Below are positions 5,278 to 52,183 of a DNA stretch of 64,000 nucleotides, piece by piece (within the stretch, counting starts at the first letter, position 1; each line of letters opens with the position of its first letter). Origin of the DNA: Cellulomonas sp. PhB150 (GTDB lineage: Bacteria; Actinomycetota; Actinomycetes; Actinomycetales; Cellulomonadaceae); assembly GCF_003755175.1 (NCBI RefSeq), contig NZ_RKHX01000001.1, positions 1,178,001-1,242,000 on the forward strand, in the 5' to 3' direction. Both the position numbers and the translations under genes were made by a program. Under the pieces are notes generated by a model. That model ran no database searches, was not told the DNA's origin, and saw only the letters and a program-made list of their open reading frames with translations.

Positions 5278-7356
5278 GTGGCCCGCAGCATCTACGTCGC
5301 CTCACCCGAGGGCGACACCGGCAAGTCGATCGTCGCCCTCGGGCTCGTGGATCTCCTGAGCAGGACGGTGCAGCGCGTCGGCGTCTTCCGGCCCGTCGCG
5401 CGGTCCACCGACACCAAGGACTTCGTCCTCGAGCTCCTGCTCGAGCACGACGGCGTCGACCTCGCGTACGACGACTGCATCGGCGTGACCTACGAGGAGC
5501 TGCTGCCGGACCCCGAGGCGGCCCTGTCCCGGATCATCACGCGGTACCACGCCGTCGCGCGGCAGTGCGACGCGGTGGTCGTCGTCGGGACCGACTACAC
5601 CGACGTCGCCGGCGCCACCGAGCTCGCGTACAACGCGCGGATCGCCGCCAACCTCGGCGCGCCCGTCGTGCTCGTGATCAACGGGCGCGGCCACAAGACG
5701 GACGCGATCGGCCAGGGCGCGAGCGTGGCCGTGGCCGAGCTGCACGCCAATCACGCGCAGGTCGCCGCGATCGTCGCCAACCGCGCGGCCAACGGCACGC
5801 TCGACGCCGTGCGCGCCGCGCTGAGCACGCCCGAGATCCCCGCCTGGGCGCTGCCGGAGAGCCCGCTGCTCAGCGCGCCGACCGTCCGCCAGCTCATGGA
5901 GGCCGTCGGCGGCGAGCAGATCGGCGGCGACGACGACCTGCTGGCCCGCGAGGTGCTCGACGTGCTCGTCGGGGCGATGTCGATCGAGCACCTGCTCGAC
6001 CGGCTCGCCGACGGCGCCGTCGTCATCACCCCCGGCGACCGGGCCGACGTGCTGCTCGGCCTCCTGCTGGCCCACCAGGCCGACGGCTTCCCCAACCTGG
6101 CCGGCATCATCCTCAACGGCGGCTTCCGCCCCGCGCCGACGATCACCCGGCTGCTCGACGGCCTGGGCAGCCGGCTGCCCATCATCGCGACGAACCTCGG
6201 CTCCTTCCGCTCCGCGAGCGCGGCGGCCTCCACGCGAGGCCGACTGACCGCCGACTCGCAGCGCAAGATCGACACCGCGCTGGCCGTCTTCGAGCAGCAC
6301 ATCGACGGTCCGGCGCTGCTCGCGGCGCTCGACGTCGCGCGGCCGGAGGTCGTCACGCCGCTGATGTTCGAGTACGAGCTGCTCGACCGAGCCCGGGCGG
6401 ACCGCAAGCACATCGTGCTGCCCGAGGGGAGCGACGACCGGATCCTGCGGGCCGCCTCCACCCTCCTGCAGCGCGGCGTCGCGCGGCTGACCCTGCTGGG
6501 TGAGGAGGCGTCGATCCGCACGCGCGCCACCGAGCTGGGCCTCGCGCTCGACGACGCGACGGTCATCGACCCGCACGACGAGCAGTGGGTGTCGCGGTTC
6601 GCCGAGGAGTACACGCAGATGCGGGCGCACAAGGGCATGACCGTCGAGCGGGCACGGGAGATCGTCCCGTCGGTGTCCTACTTCGGCACGATGATGGTGC
6701 AGCTCGGGCTCGCCGACGGCATGGTCTCCGGCGCGGTCCACACCACGGCGCACACGATCAAGCCGTCCTTCGAGATCATCAAGACGGCGCCGGGCGTCTC
6801 GAACGTGTCGAGCGCCTTCCTCATGTGCCTCGAGGACCGTGTGCTCGTGTACGCCGACTGCGCCGTCATCCCCGACCCCACCGCCGAGCAGCTCGCGGAC
6901 ATCGCCATCTCGTCGGCCGGCACCGCAGAGCAGTTCGGCATCGAGCCGCGCATCGCGATGCTGTCCTACTCCACCGGCGCCTCGGGCACCGGGGCCGACG
7001 TCGACAAGGTCCGGCAGGCCACCGCGCTCGTCCGCGAGCGCCGCCCGGACCTGTCCGTGGAGGGCCCGATCCAGTACGACGCGGCCGTCGACGCGTCCGT
7101 CGCGCAGACCAAGCTGCCGGAGTCGACCGTCGCCGGGCGCGCGACCGTGTTCGTCTTCCCGGACCTGAACACCGGCAACAACACGTACAAGGCCGTGCAA
7201 CGCTCGGCGGGTGCGGTCGCGATCGGGCCGGTGCTGCAGGGCCTGCGCAAGCCGGTCAACGACCTGTCGCGGGGCGCGCTCGTGCAGGACATCGTCAACA
7301 CCGTCGCGATCACCGCGATCCAGGCGCAAGCCCTCTCAGAGGAGAACCAGGCATGA
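5278..7356 (+). CDS. pta: Phosphate acetyltransferase, long form
   Basis: 692 residues. Transfers acetyl groups between acetyl-phosphate and CoA. It is the long, three-domain type: an N-terminal P-loop domain of the dethiobiotin-synthase kind (ASPEGDTGKS near residue 9), a central DRTGG domain (about 215-330), and the catalytic PTA/PTB domain from about 365 (starting around KHIVLPEGSDDRIL and containing SYSTGASGTG). GTG start at 5278 with AGGAGA upstream. Its stop overlaps the ackA ATG by four bases (ATGA), so the two are translationally coupled. Confidence 0.96.
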   Translation: MARSIYVASPEGDTGKSIVALGLVDLLSRTVQRVGVFRPVARSTDTKDFVLELLLEHDGVDLAYDDCIGVTYEELLPDPEAALSRIITRYHAVARQCDAVVVVGTDYTDVAGATELAYNARIAANLGAPVVLVINGRGHKTDAIGQGASVAVAELHANHAQVAAIVANRAANGTLDAVRAALSTPEIPAWALPESPLLSAPTVRQLMEAVGGEQIGGDDDLLAREVLDVLVGAMSIEHLLDRLADGAVVITPGDRADVLLGLLLAHQADGFPNLAGIILNGGFRPAPTITRLLDGLGSRLPIIATNLGSFRSASAAASTRGRLTADSQRKIDTALAVFEQHIDGPALLAALDVARPEVVTPLMFEYELLDRARADRKHIVLPEGSDDRILRAASTLLQRGVARLTLLGEEASIRTRATELGLALDDATVIDPHDEQWVSRFAEEYTQMRAHKGMTVERAREIVPSVSYFGTMMVQLGLADGMVSGAVHTTAHTIKPSFEIIKTAPGVSNVSSAFLMCLEDRVLVYADCAVIPDPTAEQLADIAISSAGTAEQFGIEPRIAMLSYSTGASGTGADVDKVRQATALVRERRPDLSVEGPIQYDAAVDASVAQTKLPESTVAGRATVFVFPDLNTGNNTYKAVQRSAGAVAIGPVLQGLRKPVNDLSRGALVQDIVNTVAITAIQAQALSEENQA

Positions 7357-8594
7357 CCGTCCTCGTCGTCAACTCGGGCTCGTCGTCCATCAAGTACCAG
7401 CTGGTGGACCCGGTCGGCGGGGGCGCGGTCGCCTCCGGCGTCGTCGAGCGCATCGGCGAGGAGACGGGCTCGCTCACGCACACCTTCGGGGACACCAAGG
7501 TGACGCGCACCGACCCCATCCCGGACCACGCGGCCGGCCTGCGCGCCGTGCTCGCGCTCTTCGACGAGGTCGGGCCGGACCTCGCGTCGTCGGACGTCGT
7601 CGCCGTGGGGCACCGCGTGGTGCACGGCGGCTCGGTGTTCTCCACGCCGGTGCTCGTCACCGACGAGGTCGTCGACCAGATCGAGGCGATCTCCCCGCTC
7701 GCGCCGCTGCACAACCCCGCCAACGTCACCGGCATCCGGGTCGCGCGCGAGCTGCTGCCCGACGTGCCGCACGTGGTCGTCTTCGACACCGCGTTCTTCC
7801 ACGGGCTGCCCGAGGCCGCCTCGACGTACGCGATCGACCGCGCCGTCGCGCGCGAGCACGGCGTGCGCCGCTACGGCTTCCACGGCACGTCGCACCACTA
7901 CGTGTCCCAGCAGGTCGCCCGCTTCCTGGGCCGTCGTGTCGAGGACCTCAACACCATCGTGCTGCACCTGGGCAACGGCGCGTCAGCGTCCGCGGTGCGC
8001 GGGGGCCACGCGGTCGAGACGTCGATGGGCATGACCCCGCTCGAGGGCCTCGTCATGGGCACCCGGTCCGGCGACGTCGACCCCGCCGTGCTCATCCACC
8101 TGCAGCGCAACGCCGGCCTGTCGGTCGACGAGGTCGACGACCTGCTCAACCGCCGCTCCGGCCTCAAGGGGCTCGCCGGCGAGAACGACTTCCGGGCGCT
8201 GCACACTCTGATCGCCGACGGCGACGAGGACGCGCAGCTCGCGCTCGACGTCTACATCCACCGGCTGCGGAAGTACATCGGCGCGTACACCGCTGTCCTC
8301 GGCCGGGTCGACGTGCTCGTGTTCACGGCGGGCGTCGGCGAGAACGACGACGTCGTGCGCGAGCTGGCCACCGCGGGCCTCGAGCCGCTCGGCTTCGAGC
8401 TGGACGCCGCGCTGAACGCGGGCCGCAAGAAGGAGCCCACGGTCGTCTCGCGCGACGTCAGCCGCACCACGATCGTCGTGTACCCGACCAACGAGGAGCT
8501 GGCCATCGCCCGGCAGGCGGTCGAGGTCGCCGAGGCCGCTGGCCTCACGGGCGAGGACGCCGACGACTCCCCCGCCGCAGCGGGCCACGCCTGA
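7353..8594 (+). CDS. ackA: Acetate kinase
   Basis: 413 residues. Makes acetate and ATP from acetyl-phosphate and ADP (reversible), closing the phosphoketolase shunt. The ASKHA signatures are clear: NSGSSSIKY at the start, HRVVHGG, FDTAFFH (catalytic Asp region), YGFHGTSH, HLGNGAS and GVGEND near the end. GAGGAGA precedes ATG 7353, which overlaps the pta stop. A short acidic Ala-rich tail follows the conserved end. Last gene of the operon; the gap after it carries a palindromic repeat element. Confidence 0.96.
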   Translation: MTVLVVNSGSSSIKYQLVDPVGGGAVASGVVERIGEETGSLTHTFGDTKVTRTDPIPDHAAGLRAVLALFDEVGPDLASSDVVAVGHRVVHGGSVFSTPVLVTDEVVDQIEAISPLAPLHNPANVTGIRVARELLPDVPHVVVFDTAFFHGLPEAASTYAIDRAVAREHGVRRYGFHGTSHHYVSQQVARFLGRRVEDLNTIVLHLGNGASASAVRGGHAVETSMGMTPLEGLVMGTRSGDVDPAVLIHLQRNAGLSVDEVDDLLNRRSGLKGLAGENDFRALHTLIADGDEDAQLALDVYIHRLRKYIGAYTAVLGRVDVLVFTAGVGENDDVVRELATAGLEPLGFELDAALNAGRKKEPTVVSRDVSRTTIVVYPTNEELAIARQAVEVAEAAGLTGEDADDSPAAAGHA

Positions 8595-8620
8595 CAGGTC
8601 CTGCGCGCACGCCCTCCTTG

Positions 8621-8689
8621 TGGCAGCAGGGATCGTTGCAGCGAGCGCGCTCCCCGCGTGCACGCACGCTGCGACGAACTCTGCGCTCA
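8621..8689. repeat. Intergenic palindromic element, copy A
   Basis: Aligns without gaps to 27402-27470 at about 52 of 69 bases by hand count. The best-conserved parts are CGCAGCGA-like and CTGCGACGA arms around a CGTGCACG centre. The arms GTTGCAGCG and CGCTGCGAC pair with one G-T. It lies between the convergent ends of ackA and the aldehyde dehydrogenase gene. Confidence 0.6.
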
Positions 8690-8707
8690 TCCACTCCGCC
8701 GGCGGGA

Positions 8708-10366
8708 TCAGGGCAGGCGGGCAGCCTTCATCAGGCGCAGCAGCCTGGTGTAGACGGGCGGGAACGTCTCGGTGCCCAGCCCGTACAGGCGGCCCAGCCC
8801 GACGCGCGGGCCGCCGCCCGGGAGCAGGCCGCCGAGCAGGCCGTGGACGCCGTGCTGGACCGCGACCGTCTGCAGGCGGGTGGTCTCCCACAGCCCCTCG
8901 CGCCCGTGCCGCACGCCGATGCCCGACGAGCCCACGCCGCCCTGCGGCGCCCCGACGGACCCCCACGTGGCGACGTAGCCCTCGTTGACGTTCACGCTGC
9001 CGGCGTGCACGCGGCGGGCGAGTGCCGCACCGCGCGCGGTGTCGGCGGTCCAGATGCTCGCGTTGAGCCCGAACTCGCTGTCGTTCATGGCCGCGACGGC
9101 CTCGTCGTCGGACGAGGCCCGGTATAGCGCGACGACCGGGCCGAACGTCTCCTCGCGCGCCAGTCGGGCCTCGGCGGGGACGTCGGTGAGGATCGTCGGC
9201 TCGTAGAACCACGGGCCCAGGTCGGTGCGGTGCACCGCACCGGACAGGACGGCGGCACCGTGCCCGATGGCGTCCTCGACGTGCTCCACGACGGTCGCGA
9301 GCTGCGCGGCGGAGGTCAGGGAGCCCACGTCGAACCGGTAGTCCAGGCCCGAGCCGATGCGCAGCTCGCGGGTCCGCCGCGCGAACGCGGCGGCGAACTC
9401 CTCGAACACCTCGTCGCGCACGTAGATGCGCTCGATCGAGACGCACACCTGCCCGGTCCCGACGAAGCACGCGCGCACGGCACCCTCGGCGACGACCTCG
9501 ACGTCGACGTCCTCGGCCACGTACATCGGGTTCTTGCCGCCGAGCTCGAGCGTCGCGGGGACGAGCCGCTCCCCCGCCTGCGCTGCGACGACCCGACCCG
9601 TGCGCGTCGAGCCCGTGAACGAGACGTGGTCGACGTTCTCGACGACGGCCCCGCCGACGGACGGCCCGTCACCCACGACGATCTGCAGCAGGTCGGCGGG
9701 CAGCCCCGCCTCCTCCAGCTGCTCAGCGGCCCAGAGCGCGGTGAGCGCGGTCTGCGGGTCGGGCCGCAGGATGACGGCGTTCCCGGCGACGAGTGCGGGG
9801 AGCACGTCGCCGATGGTGAGCGTGAGGGGGAAGTTCCAGGGCGCGACGATGCCGACGACGCCGACCGGGTGCCGCAGCACCCGCACCGACGTGAGGCCGG
9901 GCACGATCCCGCCGGCCCGCCGGGGCGCGAGGTAGCGACCGGCGCGGGCCGCGTAGTGCCGCGCGACGAGCGCGATGTCGCAGATCTCCTCGAACGCCGA
10001 GACCCGGGCCTTGCCGTTCTCGAGCTGGATGAGGTCGAGGACGTCGCTCTGCCGCTCGAGCAGCAGGTCGTGGAACCGGGAGAGGACCGCGGTGCGGTCG
10101 CGCACGGGTCGGGCGGCCCACAGCTTCTGCGCGGCGCGGGCGGCACGCGCGGCACGCGCCACGTCGTCGGGCGTCGACAGCGGCACGGCCGCGATCGGGG
10201 CTCCGGTGAACGGGGCGAGCGACGTGTGGGTCGCGGCACCCGGGGCGGCCACGACGCGCGCCAGCAGCGGGCGGACGTCGTCGGGCTCGAGCACGTAGGT
10301 GGCGAGGGGGTCGGTCTCCGGGTCGTGCAGCTCGGCCGATCCGGGTCCGTGCGAGTCGTGCGCCAT
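8708..10366 (-). CDS. NAD(P)-dependent succinate-semialdehyde-type aldehyde dehydrogenase
   Basis: 552 residues, aldehyde dehydrogenase superfamily. Visible: PWNFPLT (cofactor-binding loop), GSTRTG, LELGGKNP with the general-base Glu, the nucleophile Cys in VGTGQVCVSIERIY, and EETFGPV near the end. Length and the GQVC variant of the active-site motif fit the actinobacterial GabD2-like succinate-semialdehyde dehydrogenases; the exact aldehyde substrate is not provable here. It is longer at the N-terminus than typical aldehyde dehydrogenases. ATG 10366 is supported by TACCCT at 10374-10379 (minus), 7 bases upstream, so it is probably leaderless. It stands alone. Confidence 0.88.
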   Translation of the reverse strand: MAHDSHGPGSAELHDPETDPLATYVLEPDDVRPLLARVVAAPGAATHTSLAPFTGAPIAAVPLSTPDDVARAARAARAAQKLWAARPVRDRTAVLSRFHDLLLERQSDVLDLIQLENGKARVSAFEEICDIALVARHYAARAGRYLAPRRAGGIVPGLTSVRVLRHPVGVVGIVAPWNFPLTLTIGDVLPALVAGNAVILRPDPQTALTALWAAEQLEEAGLPADLLQIVVGDGPSVGGAVVENVDHVSFTGSTRTGRVVAAQAGERLVPATLELGGKNPMYVAEDVDVEVVAEGAVRACFVGTGQVCVSIERIYVRDEVFEEFAAAFARRTRELRIGSGLDYRFDVGSLTSAAQLATVVEHVEDAIGHGAAVLSGAVHRTDLGPWFYEPTILTDVPAEARLAREETFGPVVALYRASSDDEAVAAMNDSEFGLNASIWTADTARGAALARRVHAGSVNVNEGYVATWGSVGAPQGGVGSSGIGVRHGREGLWETTRLQTVAVQHGVHGLLGGLLPGGGPRVGLGRLYGLGTETFPPVYTRLLRLMKAARLP

Positions 10367-22077: not shown

Positions 22078-22092
22078 CCCGAAGACACCGAC

Positions 22093-22128
22093 AGAAGCCC
22101 CCCGGTCGAGGACGACCGGGGGGCTTCT
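22093..22128 (+). terminator. Rho-independent terminator after whiB
   Basis: Perfect 15-base stem (22093-22107 with 22114-22128) with a 6-base loop, very GC-rich, 16 bases after the whiB stop. There is only a weak T-tract after the stem, common in high-GC actinobacteria. Confidence 0.85.
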
Positions 22129-22178
22129 GCGTCGCCGCGTCGTGCGCCAGACTGCGTGGGGGCGACGAGGGGGTCTGC

Positions 22179-26579: not shown

Positions 26580-26666
26580 GCGTCCTAGGATAGGTGTGCC
26601 GGGTGGCGTGACGAGCGTCACGGCCGCACGCGGAACACCGCCAGGTCGTTGAATCTTGTACGAGTC

Positions 26667-27308
26667 ATGACGACTGACACCACCGTCCTCGACGGCCTCG
26701 ACTTCCCCGCTCCCGCGCTCGCCGTCGCCGACGACGTCGCCGACCTCCTGTTCCGCGAGGCGCGCACCATCGCGTCCTTCACCGACCAGCCCGTGACCGA
26801 CGAGGAGCTCGCCGCCGTCTACGACCTGGTGAAGTGGGGCCCGACCGCGATCAACACGACGCCGCTGCGTCTGCTCGTCGTGCGCACGCCGGAGGCCCGC
26901 GAGCGCCTCGCGAAGCACGTGAACGACGGCAACCGCGACCGCGTCCTGGCCGCCCCGGTGACGCTCATCGTCGCCTCGGACCCCGGCTTCCACGAGCACA
27001 TGCCGTTCCTCGCCCCCCACATGGCGGCCCTCGGCGAGGCGCTGCACCCGCAGACCGAGACCCGCGAGCAGATGGCGCGGATGAACACGCTCATCCAGTT
27101 CGGCTACCTCATCGTCGGCCTGCGCGCCGCCGGCCTGGACGCCGGCCCCATGGCGGGCCTGGACACCGACGGCGTCGACGCGGAGTTCTTCGCCGACAAC
27201 GGCTGGAAGTCGCAGCTCATCATCAACGTCGGCCACCGCGACGGCGTCGGCACCACGTACCCGCGCGGGCAGCGCCTGTCCTACGACCAGGTCTCGCTGA
27301 CCGTCTGA
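26667..27308 (+). CDS. RutE/HadB-type nitroreductase (malonic semialdehyde reductase family)
   Basis: 213 residues. FMN-dependent nitroreductase fold: [36 protein letters not shown] (flavin-binding), the central [22 protein letters not shown] helix and [13 protein letters not shown] near the end. Length and motifs match the RutE/HadB group, which reduces 3-oxopropanoate (malonic semialdehyde) or related aldehydes with NAD(P)H. No other rut genes are nearby, so the pathway role is open. ATG 26667 is taken; TTG 26649 gives only a short extension. A strong terminator follows. Confidence 0.88.
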
Positions 27309-27320
27309 CGCACCGCCGAC

Positions 27321-27351
27321 GGGCGCGCATCCCCCACCGGGATGCGCGCCC
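27321..27351 (+). terminator. Terminator after the RutE-like gene
   Basis: GGGCGCGCATCCC-N5-GGGATGCGCGCCC, a perfect 13-base stem, 12 bases after the stop codon. Confidence 0.85.
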
Positions 27352-27401
27352 GCGGCATGTCCGGACCCGTTCGCTCAACCCGCGCCCGACCGCACGCGCG
27401 A

Positions 27402-27470
27402 TGGACGCAGTTCTCGTCGCAGCGATCACGCTGCTGGCGTGCACGATCGCTGCGACGAGAACTGCACTCA
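27402..27470. repeat. Intergenic palindromic element, copy B
   Basis: Perfect 21-base inverted arms at 27407-27427 and 27445-27465 around a 17-base loop containing GCGTGCAC. Ungapped similarity to copy A at 8621-8689 is about 75 percent by hand count. It sits between two convergent genes after a separate terminator, so it is not simply a terminator. Confidence 0.75.
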
Positions 27471-27519
27471 CGCTGAGGACTCAGGCGGGCGGGGCCATGC
27501 GTGCGCGCGGCGGCGCGTG

Positions 27520-28356
27520 TCAGGAGCCGGTCGCGACCGGGCGGGCCTCGTCGTTGGACCACTGCGACCACGAGCCCGGGTACAGCGCGGCCTCGATGCC
27601 GACCGAGGCCAGCGCGGCCACCTCGTGCGCGGCGGTCACGCCGGAACCGCAGTAGACGGCCACGGGCGCACCCGCCGCGGCTCCGAGCGCACGGAACCGG
27701 TCCCGCAGCGCGTCGGCCGCGAGGAAGGTCCCGTCGGCGTCGAGGTTGCTCGCCGTGGGCGCGGAGACCGCACCGGGGATGTGGCCCGCCTGCGGGTCGA
27801 CCGGCTCGACCTCGCCCGCGTACCGCTCCGCGGCCCGGGCGTCGAGCAGGGGGCCGTCCCACGCGGCGGCGTCGTCGGCGTCGATCGTCGGCATGCCCCC
27901 GGGCCGCACGACGAGGTCGCCGGGCTCGGCGACGACCGCGCCGGCCTCGAGCGGGAGTCCCGCTGCCGTCCACGCCTCCAGGCCGCCGTCGAGCAGGCGC
28001 ACCTCGCGCAGCCCCGCCCAGCGCAGGAGCCACCAGGCGCGCGCCGCGGAGATGCCTCCACCACCGTCGTAGGCGACCACGGCCCGGTCCTCGCGCACGC
28101 CCCAGCGCCGCGCGGCGGCTTCGAGGTCCGCGACGGCGGGCAGCGGGTGGCGGCCCTCCGCGGGGCTCGGCGGTGCGGCGAGCTCGGCGTCGAGGTCGAC
28201 GAACACCGCGCCCGGCAGGTGACCCGCCAGGTACTGCTCGTGGCCGTCGGTGCGGCCGAGCGCCCAGCGGACGTCGAGCAGCACGGGCGGCTCGTCCCCC
28301 GCGAGCGCGGCGGCCAGTCCCACGGCGTCGACCAGGACGTCGTCGCGATCACTCAT
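27520..28356 (-). CDS. Thiosulfate/3-mercaptopyruvate sulfurtransferase (two rhodanese domains)
   Basis: 278 residues. Two rhodanese domains: an N-terminal inactive one (LLDVRWALGRTDGHEQYLAGHLPGA) and a C-terminal one with the catalytic loop CGSGVTA. The CGSGVTA loop is that of TST/MST enzymes, which move sulfane sulfur to cyanide or thiols. ATG 28356 with GGGGA upstream is preferred over ATG 28362. The start lies inside the end of rimI (8-base overlap), so the gene is the tail of the alr-tsaE-tsaB-rimI chain. Confidence 0.92.
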   Translation of the reverse strand: MSDRDDVLVDAVGLAAALAGDEPPVLLDVRWALGRTDGHEQYLAGHLPGAVFVDLDAELAAPPSPAEGRHPLPAVADLEAAARRWGVREDRAVVAYDGGGGISAARAWWLLRWAGLREVRLLDGGLEAWTAAGLPLEAGAVVAEPGDLVVRPGGMPTIDADDAAAWDGPLLDARAAERYAGEVEPVDPQAGHIPGAVSAPTASNLDADGTFLAADALRDRFRALGAAAGAPVAVYCGSGVTAAHEVAALASVGIEAALYPGSWSQWSNDEARPVATGS

Positions 28357-28816
28357 GAGCATCCCCGTTCTGTGCCGACGTCAGCCCCAGCTGCATCGTC
28401 CACGCGTCCTTGTTCTCCGGCTGGTAATACCCCCGGCGCAGGCCGAGCCGCGTGAAGCCCGCGCGCTCGTACAGCCGCAGCGCGGGCTCGTTGTCGACCC
28501 GCACCTCGAGCAGCACGGACGCGGCACCGATCTCGCGCGCCCGGGCGACGAGCGCCGCCAGCATCACGCCACCCAGCCCACGGCCCTGGTGCGCCGTGGC
28601 GGTGCCGATCGTCATGACCTGCGCGTCGTCCCCGTCGAACCACAACCCGGCGTAGCCGGCGAGGATTCCGTCGACCTCCACGCCCACGTACCAGCGGCCA
28701 GGCCCGACGAGCTCCTCGGCAAGCATCGCGGCCGACCACGCCCCGGCGCCGAACAGCTCGCGCTCGAGCGTCTCGAGCACCGGCAGGTCCGCCGCGGTCA
28801 GCGGGCGGACGCTCAT
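28349..28816 (-). CDS. rimI: Ribosomal protein bS18 alanine N-acetyltransferase
   Basis: 155 residues, GNAT fold. Acetyl-CoA pyrophosphate loop HQGRGLGGVML, then LLEVRVDNEPALRLYERAGF, the C-terminal signature of RimI. It acetylates the N-terminal alanine of bS18 and, in some actinobacteria, other proteins. ATG 28816 overlaps the tsaB stop (ATGA). The tsaB-rimI order is very common and supports the assignment. Confidence 0.92.
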   Translation of the reverse strand: MSVRPLTAADLPVLETLERELFGAGAWSAAMLAEELVGPGRWYVGVEVDGILAGYAGLWFDGDDAQVMTIGTATAHQGRGLGGVMLAALVARAREIGAASVLLEVRVDNEPALRLYERAGFTRLGLRRGYYQPENKDAWTMQLGLTSAQNGDAHE

Positions 28817-29490
28817 CCCCCGACGCGCTTGCTGGCCGCGGGCGGCACGGCGTCGGGGCGACGCAGGTAGAGCGGCTCGGTCGGCAGGTCGAGGCCGGCG
28901 GCGCGGCGGGCGATCGCCAGGACGGCGAGCTCGGCGGGGTCGGGGTCGAGCAGGCCGTCCGGCACGGTGTGCGCGCCGAGCGCCTCGGGGTAGAGGGCGG
29001 CGCCACGCCCGACGACGAGCGCGCCCGGCTCGACCGTGACCGTCCTCGCCGCGCCCACGGCGGGCTCGGCGAGGACGGTCACGAGGCCCGGACCGTCGGC
29101 GCGGTAGGTGGACGAGTAGACCTCGCGGCGGCGGGCGTCGGTGGCGACGACGATCGTCGTGCCGACCGGCGCGACCCGCGAGGCGGCGAGGGCGATCGCG
29201 TCGAGCGACGGGACGCCGAGCACCGGGATGCCCAGGCCGAGCGCGAGCGTGCGCGCGGTGACGAGCCCGACGCGCAGGCCGGTGAACGGCGCCGGTCCCG
29301 TGCCGACGACGACCGCCGTCAGCTCGCGACGGTCCACACCCGCCTCCGCGAGTACCGACTCGATCATGGGAGCGAGCAGCTCGGCGTGGTGCCGCTGCTG
29401 GCTGTCGGCCCGGGCGGCGAGGACCTCGCCGGCGTCCGAGGTCAGGGCGACCGCGACGGCGCCGGAGGTGTCGAGAGCAAGAACGGGCAC
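28813..29490 (-). CDS. tsaB: t6A biosynthesis protein TsaB
   Basis: 225 residues. ASKHA fold related to TsaD but without metal-binding His: LALDTSGAVAVAL at the start, HHAELLAPMI and GTGPAPFTGLRVGLVTARTLA are the family hallmarks. It is a scaffold that pairs with TsaD and TsaE in the tRNA-modifying complex. The GTG 29490 start lies 4 bases after the tsaE stop. The C-terminal part (EPLYLRRPDAV) is typical. Confidence 0.93.
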   Translation of the reverse strand: MPVLALDTSGAVAVALTSDAGEVLAARADSQQRHHAELLAPMIESVLAEAGVDRRELTAVVVGTGPAPFTGLRVGLVTARTLALGLGIPVLGVPSLDAIALAASRVAPVGTTIVVATDARRREVYSSTYRADGPGLVTVLAEPAVGAARTVTVEPGALVVGRGAALYPEALGAHTVPDGLLDPDPAELAVLAIARRAAGLDLPTEPLYLRRPDAVPPAASKRVGG

Positions 29491-52147: not shown

Positions 52148-52183
52148 CGAAGGCCCGGACACCGTGTGGTGTCCGGGCCTTCG
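52148..52183. terminator. Terminator between the hypothetical gene and rplQ
   Basis: A perfect 16-base stem with a 4-base loop (52148-52163 with 52168-52183). It serves both convergent transcripts and marks the end of the rplQ operon. Confidence 0.88.

Follow-up and report, generated by a model that had tools for sequence, protein, structure and literature searches.

A dispersed family of palindromes with tandem-unit arms in Cellulomonas sp. PhB150 and its relatives

The GTAG and CGTC REPs, together with BIMEs and REPINs, are short dispersed intergenic palindromes that lie 3' of genes and are biased towards tandem and convergent gene pairs; they are patchy among species, and a species sometimes holds several families (PMC3733652). 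REPs are hairpins of 20-40 bp, with stems of 5-13 bp and a GTAG or CGTC tag left unpaired (PMC3733652). In the parts of that paper drawn upon here, REP palindromes come mainly from Proteobacteria, the mobilisation of GTAG REPs is ascribed to RAYT, CGTC REPs have no dedicated transposase, and the phyla listed do not include Actinobacteria, a word absent from the main text (PMC3733652). In the DNA uptake sequences of Neisseria and Pasteurellaceae, a short word in inverted pairs makes up hairpins or terminators at gene ends, and the part of the source used here puts such words generally at 1,000 or more occurrences (PMC1852404). A description of comparable elements in Cellulomonas or Actinobacteria was sought in the open-licence literature, and nothing on topic was found.

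The elements described here, which we call family A, are like the REPs in being short intergenic palindromes with patchy occurrence, and like the CGTC REPs in that no dedicated transposase was found in the carriers tested. They differ from REPs in their length of ~74 bp, in their 24-bp arms built of tandem units and in having no tag. The inverted pairs of a short word at gene ends recall the uptake sequences, but family A amounts to tens of four-unit elements, a count that does not include single words. Copy numbers per genome (12, 16 and 47) are also below the more than 100 given as usual for REPs in the portion of PMC2817692 used here. REP-like dispersal itself is already known; family A is new as a variant, that is, as a dispersed actinobacterial palindrome whose arms are tandem units and whose tested carriers have no RAYT.

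The window, a stretch of 64,000 nucleotides of the PhB150 genome, holds the family A features listed below. R1 is a covariance model made from six copies, the window copy and copy A among them, and the unit table has rows from 11 of the 14 copies of PhB150 and 9 of the 16 copies of Cellulomonas sp. JH27-2.

27396..27474, + strand: family A element, window copy (R1, 84.5 bits, E 2.8e-19)
27400..27411, + strand: 12-bp unit 1, left outer (unit table)
27412..27423, + strand: 12-bp unit 2, left inner (unit table)
27424..27448, no strand: centre of the element, which varies by lineage (unit table and alignment)
27449..27460, - strand: 12-bp unit 3, right inner, inverted (unit table)
27461..27472, - strand: 12-bp unit 4, right outer, inverted (unit table)
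8615..8693, + strand: family A element, copy A (R1, 78.5 bits, E 9.3e-18; unit table)
8619-8630, 8631-8642, 8668-8679 and 8680-8691: the 12-bp units of copy A (unit table)

The window copy was also matched by R1 on the - strand (27398-27476, 76.5 bits). An earlier sequence-only reading had described it as a palindrome with perfect 21-base arms around a 17-base loop, and re-computation gave exactly this: segment 27407-27427 is the exact reverse complement of segment 27445-27465. The similarity to copy A (8621-8689) that had been put at about 52/69 without gaps was likewise re-counted as 52/69, with 16/21 identical bases in the left arm, 13/17 in the loop and 16/21 in the right arm. The 69 bases then allotted to the element were too few, the conserved unit extending from about 27400 to 27472 according to the unit table. 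The palindrome is the longest perfect inverted repeat of the window at loop lengths of 3-40, and perfect inverted repeats with arms of at least 16 numbered four in the real window and none in five of five base-shuffled windows. When folded as RNA, segment 27396-27476 reached -52.9 kcal/mol (z -7.4 relative to dinucleotide shuffles), and copy A reached -42.5 kcal/mol (z -4.0). Elsewhere in the window, a perfect 17-bp inverted repeat with a 15-base loop (29035-29083) lies within a predicted - strand gene (28813-29490), and two terminator-like perfect inverted repeats with arms of 17 and 16 bp and 4-base loops (22092-22129 and 52148-52183) are intergenic with respect to predicted genes. No Rfam family matched the window at gathering scores.

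The genes around the two copies, called by a custom GC-frame script rather than taken from annotation, and a neighbouring hairpin are as follows.

26667..27308, + strand: nitroreductase-family gene, start uncertain (PF00881, E 1.2e-16 on ORF 26649-27308; gene call)
27315..27355, + strand: separate strong hairpin 3' of the nitroreductase gene (-37.1 kcal/mol, z -6.7)
27520..28362, - strand: rhodanese-domain gene (PF00581, E 2e-29; gene call)
7353..8594, + strand: gene upstream of copy A (gene call)
8708..10366, - strand: convergent gene on the far side of copy A (gene call)

Both copies lie between convergent genes, as had been noticed from the sequence (the + strand genes end at 27308 and 8594, and the - strand genes at 27520 and 8708), and the window copy follows a separate hairpin, the one at 27315-27355, which stands between it and the nitroreductase gene.

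A BLAST search of the PhB150 genome with 111 bases returned further copies. With R1, 12 firm places were found (E <= 1.5e-4), in addition to two further probable copies and one half copy. The proposal of a dispersed intergenic element with diverged copies is thus borne out, and the opposite outcome envisaged with it, a genome devoid of further copies, did not occur. The 14 PhB150 copies referred to throughout are the 12 firm ones plus C2:261209 (E 0.05) and C1:1537091 (E 0.08), both kept by eye as probable. R1 matches at C2:367334 and C2:608501 were dropped since they lie inside genes, while those at C2:263063, C2:436158, C1:1293347 and C5:136814 were too weak to keep, with the sequence inspected for C2:263063 only. 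The half copy at C1:567800 was left out of the count; it consists of the left arm only, plus some upstream bases common to the window copy (L005:1501-1540, corresponding to C1:567793-567832).

An R1 search of 29 genomes matched seven of them at E <= 0.01; weak matches in G003, G014, G015 and G017 were set aside as sequences without units. There were 16 family A places in G002, taken as Cellulomonas sp. JH27-2, and many in G010, taken as C. composti, where in the stretches inspected they often formed arrays spaced 138-249 bp. Arrays of 3-6 elements with a spacing of 147-227 bp are seen at L181:2641-3487, L158:4987-5458 and L136:1303-2124 of C. composti, and at L181 the DNA between array elements is also repeated. 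R2, a broader covariance model of 38 rows, was run on 81 genomes of the genus and reached E <= 1e-6 in 10 of them, which is a lower bound because the filters were strict. A pattern scan of genome contigs gave 47 distinct matches in C. composti and one in C. persica, and was also positive in Cellulomonas sp. JH27-2; among metagenome-assembled genomes (MAGs), it found 13 loci in BWSM_131 (Actinomycetales), 15 in clean1242 (Kineosporiaceae) and two in AUS1. The scan yielded 76 stretches in total, 53 in named carriers and 23 in other bacteria. We take the latter for chance matches, 10 of them having been examined, of which seven were inside genes and three were not. In a class-wide R2 survey of 394 genomes PhB150 alone was positive, which, with 11 candidates scored per genome and a limit of 1e-9, is weak evidence of absence elsewhere. 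Searches of plasmid and phage sequences gave no match to the window copy; with window DNA from nearby as query, megablast returned a single plasmid match of 76% over 9% of the query and no phage match. Plasmid or phage carriage was rejected.

Each 24-bp arm of family A is a tandem pair of 12-bp units (about NRTSGTYGCAGS). An element of ~74 bp therefore contains four of them, a direct pair on one side of a centre of ~25 bp and an inverted pair on the other. The sequence-only reading had the palindrome right and missed this tandem build of its arms. Among 80 units from 20 copies (PhB150 and JH27-2), the most constant positions were A10 (80), G8 (79), T3 (78), G5 (72), C9 (71) and G11 (67), and in the same copies an arm matched itself best at a shift of 12 (0.564), every other shift between 6 and 18 giving 0.16-0.44 (0.438 at most). 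The two-plus-two arrangement was present in 71 of 84 copies, a few having three to five units per arm. The search pattern prescribes several unit positions, at which conservation in BWSM_131, clean1242 and C. composti is imposed. Position 6, which the pattern leaves free, is G in 68/68 units of clean1242, A in 37/52 of BWSM_131, A or G in 79/84 of C. composti and T in 54/80 of PhB150 and JH27-2. The centre of the element also varies between lineages in the 38-row alignment, in which inspection by eye revealed no shared GTAG end. Where some copies of C. composti have CGTC at their outer edge, it falls inside the outer unit.

Among copies taken from different fetched loci of C. composti, 310 pairs had a core identity of at least 0.8, partly imposed because the search pattern prescribes some core positions, and identity fell to ~0.35 just outside the element. 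Flank identity was 0.31 in BWSM_131, 0.32 in clean1242 and 0.35 in C. composti. The edges of family A are sharp at unrelated loci, and the element has spread as a unit. These data bear on another account of the palindromes, that they are ordinary terminators alike by chance. Their location and hairpin energy agree with it, but a shared family of ~74 bp with sharp edges at unrelated loci and an internal period of 12 bp does not, and we give chance resemblance next to no credence. The same doubt had been raised at the outset; ordinary terminators do not explain the origin of the copies, while a terminator-like role is still, in our view, their likeliest function.

Sharp boundaries and inverted ends are also features of MITEs, which are non-autonomous, and family A is like them in these respects. 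It might accordingly be a short transposon derivative whose transposase binds two tandem sites per end, an idea that suits inverted ends carrying two tandem repeats each. Yet no consistent target-site duplication was detected relative to shuffled flanks, a difference from MITEs that the loss of a duplication from old copies could produce; the lowest counts of shuffles that did as well were 1/60 at 10 bp in BWSM_131, 4-8/60 at 4-6 bp in clean1242 and 3/60 at 7 bp in C. composti. As the window copy was also without a plasmid or phage match, we regard a MITE as unlikely. Insertion into existing terminator hairpins was considered separately and rejected: the flanks were not inverted beyond shuffles in BWSM_131, clean1242, C. 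composti or family B (a different palindrome, described below), and a weak excess was seen in PhB150 (26/300 shuffles as good, 11 copies) and JH27-2 (13/300, 5 copies).

A classic REP or REPIN mobilised by RAYT would likewise be dispersed, intergenic and palindromic, with the gene-end and convergent bias published for REPs (PMC3733652, in the part used here). PF01797 (Y1/RAYT), however, had no match in the PhB150 genome or, among 60 genomes of the genus, in the carriers G002, G010, G035, G036, G042, G051 and G066, which excludes a present-day RAYT there. The search covered 8 of the 10 Cellulomonas carriers (G070, G081 and the MAGs were left out), and the single positive genome, G004, was without family A at E 1e-6. 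The size, stem length and ends of the elements are also unlike those of GTAG and CGTC REPs, and RAYT mobilisation appears very improbable. The suggestion of a REP-like or MITE-like element thus holds for dispersal and for enrichment between convergent genes (see below); it is not borne out as to the RAYT, the search for which was negative in PhB150, G002 and G010, or as to a target-site duplication, of which no consistent one was seen. An all-against-all comparison of 407 flanking proteins gave no cluster of the kind expected of a mobilising enzyme encoded beside the elements. Pfam scans of 16 clustered flanking proteins and two proteins at orthologous sites returned ABC transporters, aminopeptidases, oxidoreductases, an MFS protein, RbfA, citrate synthase, NAD synthase, an aminotransferase, or no match. 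Family A copies at L044 (PhB150) and L171 (MAG BWSM_131) are both downstream of leucyl aminopeptidase genes, whose products are 64% identical. We conclude that this dispersed family of palindromes with tandem-unit arms is real and that the tested carriers have no RAYT; some other enzyme may copy the elements in trans.

The elements are located mostly downstream of genes. In PhB150, eight of the 14 copies are convergent, six tandem and none divergent. The convergent excess is significant, as only 10 of the window's 69 other gene pairs converge (Fisher 0.0015), while the absence of divergent copies is not significant in PhB150 alone (0.09). In BWSM_131, clean1242 and C. composti taken together, convergent regions made up 22/42 element regions versus 13/114 other regions (p 2.8e-7), and divergent regions 4/42 versus 42/114 (p 4.6e-4); the 42 are those with a called gene on both sides, and the comparison regions were at least 75 bp long, so that short intergenic regions were left out while an element lengthens its own region. 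The enrichment between convergent genes proposed for checking in the sequence-only reading is thus present in PhB150 and in three other genomes. Stem-loops in general gather at the 3' ends of genes and prefer convergent over divergent spaces, according to the part of PMC1590033 used here, and the bias of family A taken alone is therefore ordinary. A stop codon lies within 20 bp of five of the 14 PhB150 copies and 28 to 233 bp from the others, the nearest stop being more than 100 bp away for L026 and L044 and 233 bp away for L036.

Orthologous sites in relatives were also compared. In the convergent region between the RbfA and MFS genes, 10 genomes were resolved by the gene caller out of 16 loci; two carry family A, four carry family B and four a plain strong hairpin. 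The two family A copies, in PhB150 and JH27-2, differ on both arms in ways that preserve pairing. At the site of copy A, eight of 10 resolved relatives have a strong hairpin other than family A, and two have 3-12 bp and nothing in it; a 35-bp pair of L282 (G002) was dropped, as another stretch separates the two flanks there. The nitroreductase and rhodanese genes are adjacent in nine resolved relatives, with gaps of 1-114 bp and family A in none (G002 has an extra gene between them, and G007 was unresolved). By eye, four of these gaps contain other inverted repeats, and the remaining five are 1-25 bp long with nothing in them, so a terminator is not needed at that site. The best evidence for a shared gene-end role is that family A, family B and plain hairpins replace one another at the RbfA/MFS site. 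A bidirectional role at gene ends is accordingly predicted for family A and is likely.

The best explanation in our view, for which the chances seem about even, is that family A is a RAYT-less, REP-like, non-autonomous dispersed element that serves as a bidirectional 3'-end hairpin. An element of ~74 bp, with four 12-bp words around a lineage-specific centre, would spread as a unit and be kept mostly downstream of genes as such a hairpin, which may stop or insulate transcription between neighbours, as its position and the other hairpins holding the same sites suggest. Several observations count against this explanation: a separate hairpin is already present 3' of the nitroreductase gene, five of nine relatives have gaps of only 1-25 bp at that site, only five of 14 copies are within 20 bp of a stop codon, none of the 90 copies checked has a T-tract beside it, and the searches brought up no mobilising enzyme. 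So does a test of pairing. If pairing is under selection, the arms should match better within a copy than between copies. Of 5000 permutations, 1873 were as good in PhB150 (11 copies), 2447 in BWSM_131 (13), 4843 in clean1242 (17) and 2653 in C. composti (one copy per fetched locus, 21/47); an excess of within-copy pairing was seen in JH27-2 only (21/5000, 9 of its 16 copies). Both arms change together across lineages (0/500 shuffles), a result confounded by relatedness, which explains it equally well; the first six copies equalled shuffles.

These results are the reason why we keep a serious rival, which we consider possible if doubtful: the 12-bp units would each be recognised as double-stranded DNA by a binding protein (a nucleoid protein, a topoisomerase partner or a roadblock factor), with hairpin formation a by-product of their inverted layout. 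In favour of a protein-binding array, the units are conserved, yet in four of five genomes they pair no better within copies than between them. A T-tract, looked for beside the element on either strand, was found in none of 90 copies (0/14 in PhB150, 0/12 in BWSM_131, 0/17 in clean1242 and 0/47 in C. composti), and a T-tract search of window segment 27200-27600 gave 0 sites. Position 6 is lineage-specific, as if the units tracked one factor, although a recent common source copy would have the same effect. Against the array, the arms of JH27-2 do match within copies, the RbfA-site copies of PhB150 and JH27-2 differ on both arms with pairing kept, and hairpins without the word occupy the same sites in relatives.

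Two further palindrome families are built in the same way. Family B is unrelated in sequence and has an 11-bp core, GAGGTCGTCAC, present four times, with a 19-bp period wherever two cores share one side and, by direct count, a 6-bp centre in 16 of 19 copies. It was found at E <= 1e-6, at gene ends of other Cellulomonas species, in four of 20 genomes searched (G009, G015, G038 and G067; an example is L205:1918-1992 of G009), none of which is among the 10 genomes of the genus that matched R2. Among 19 places examined, 12 were convergent, seven tandem and none divergent, and no copy (0/19) had a T-tract beside it. Being alike in layout, with 11-bp cores at 19-bp spacing, family B fits the array, while its 8-bp spacers pair only slightly better within copies than between them (4.69 versus 4.22, 287/5000, 16 copies). 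Family C is a second dispersed palindrome of PhB150, with the word GGTGTGCG and a 12-bp period. It has eight good places (L300-L304, L306, L307 and L313, from position 1501) and a weak one; of the nine, two are convergent, five tandem and two divergent. Its arms match themselves best at a shift of 12 (0.57, versus 0.17-0.43 at others), with a word different from that of family A. In a mosaic-like arrangement, three of the eight good places have a family A copy (in one case a probable one) no more than 55 bp away.

The repeated layout suggests a wider reading, which we put forward as speculation and think rather unlikely. Cellulomonas-type Actinobacteria would have a general class of mobile tandem-arm palindromes, in which three or more unrelated words (12 bp in families A and C, 19 bp in B) are each built in the two-direct, two-inverted layout, spread without RAYT and are interchangeable with ordinary hairpins at gene ends as portable bidirectional stops or insulators. 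Under this general-class reading, the recurrence of the layout in all three families would imply a shared trans-acting system recognising two units in each arm. Whichever reading applies, different species have family A, family B or a plain hairpin at one and the same orthologous gene-end site, and through this natural series the alternatives of a parasite, a terminator and a protein-binding site become directly testable.
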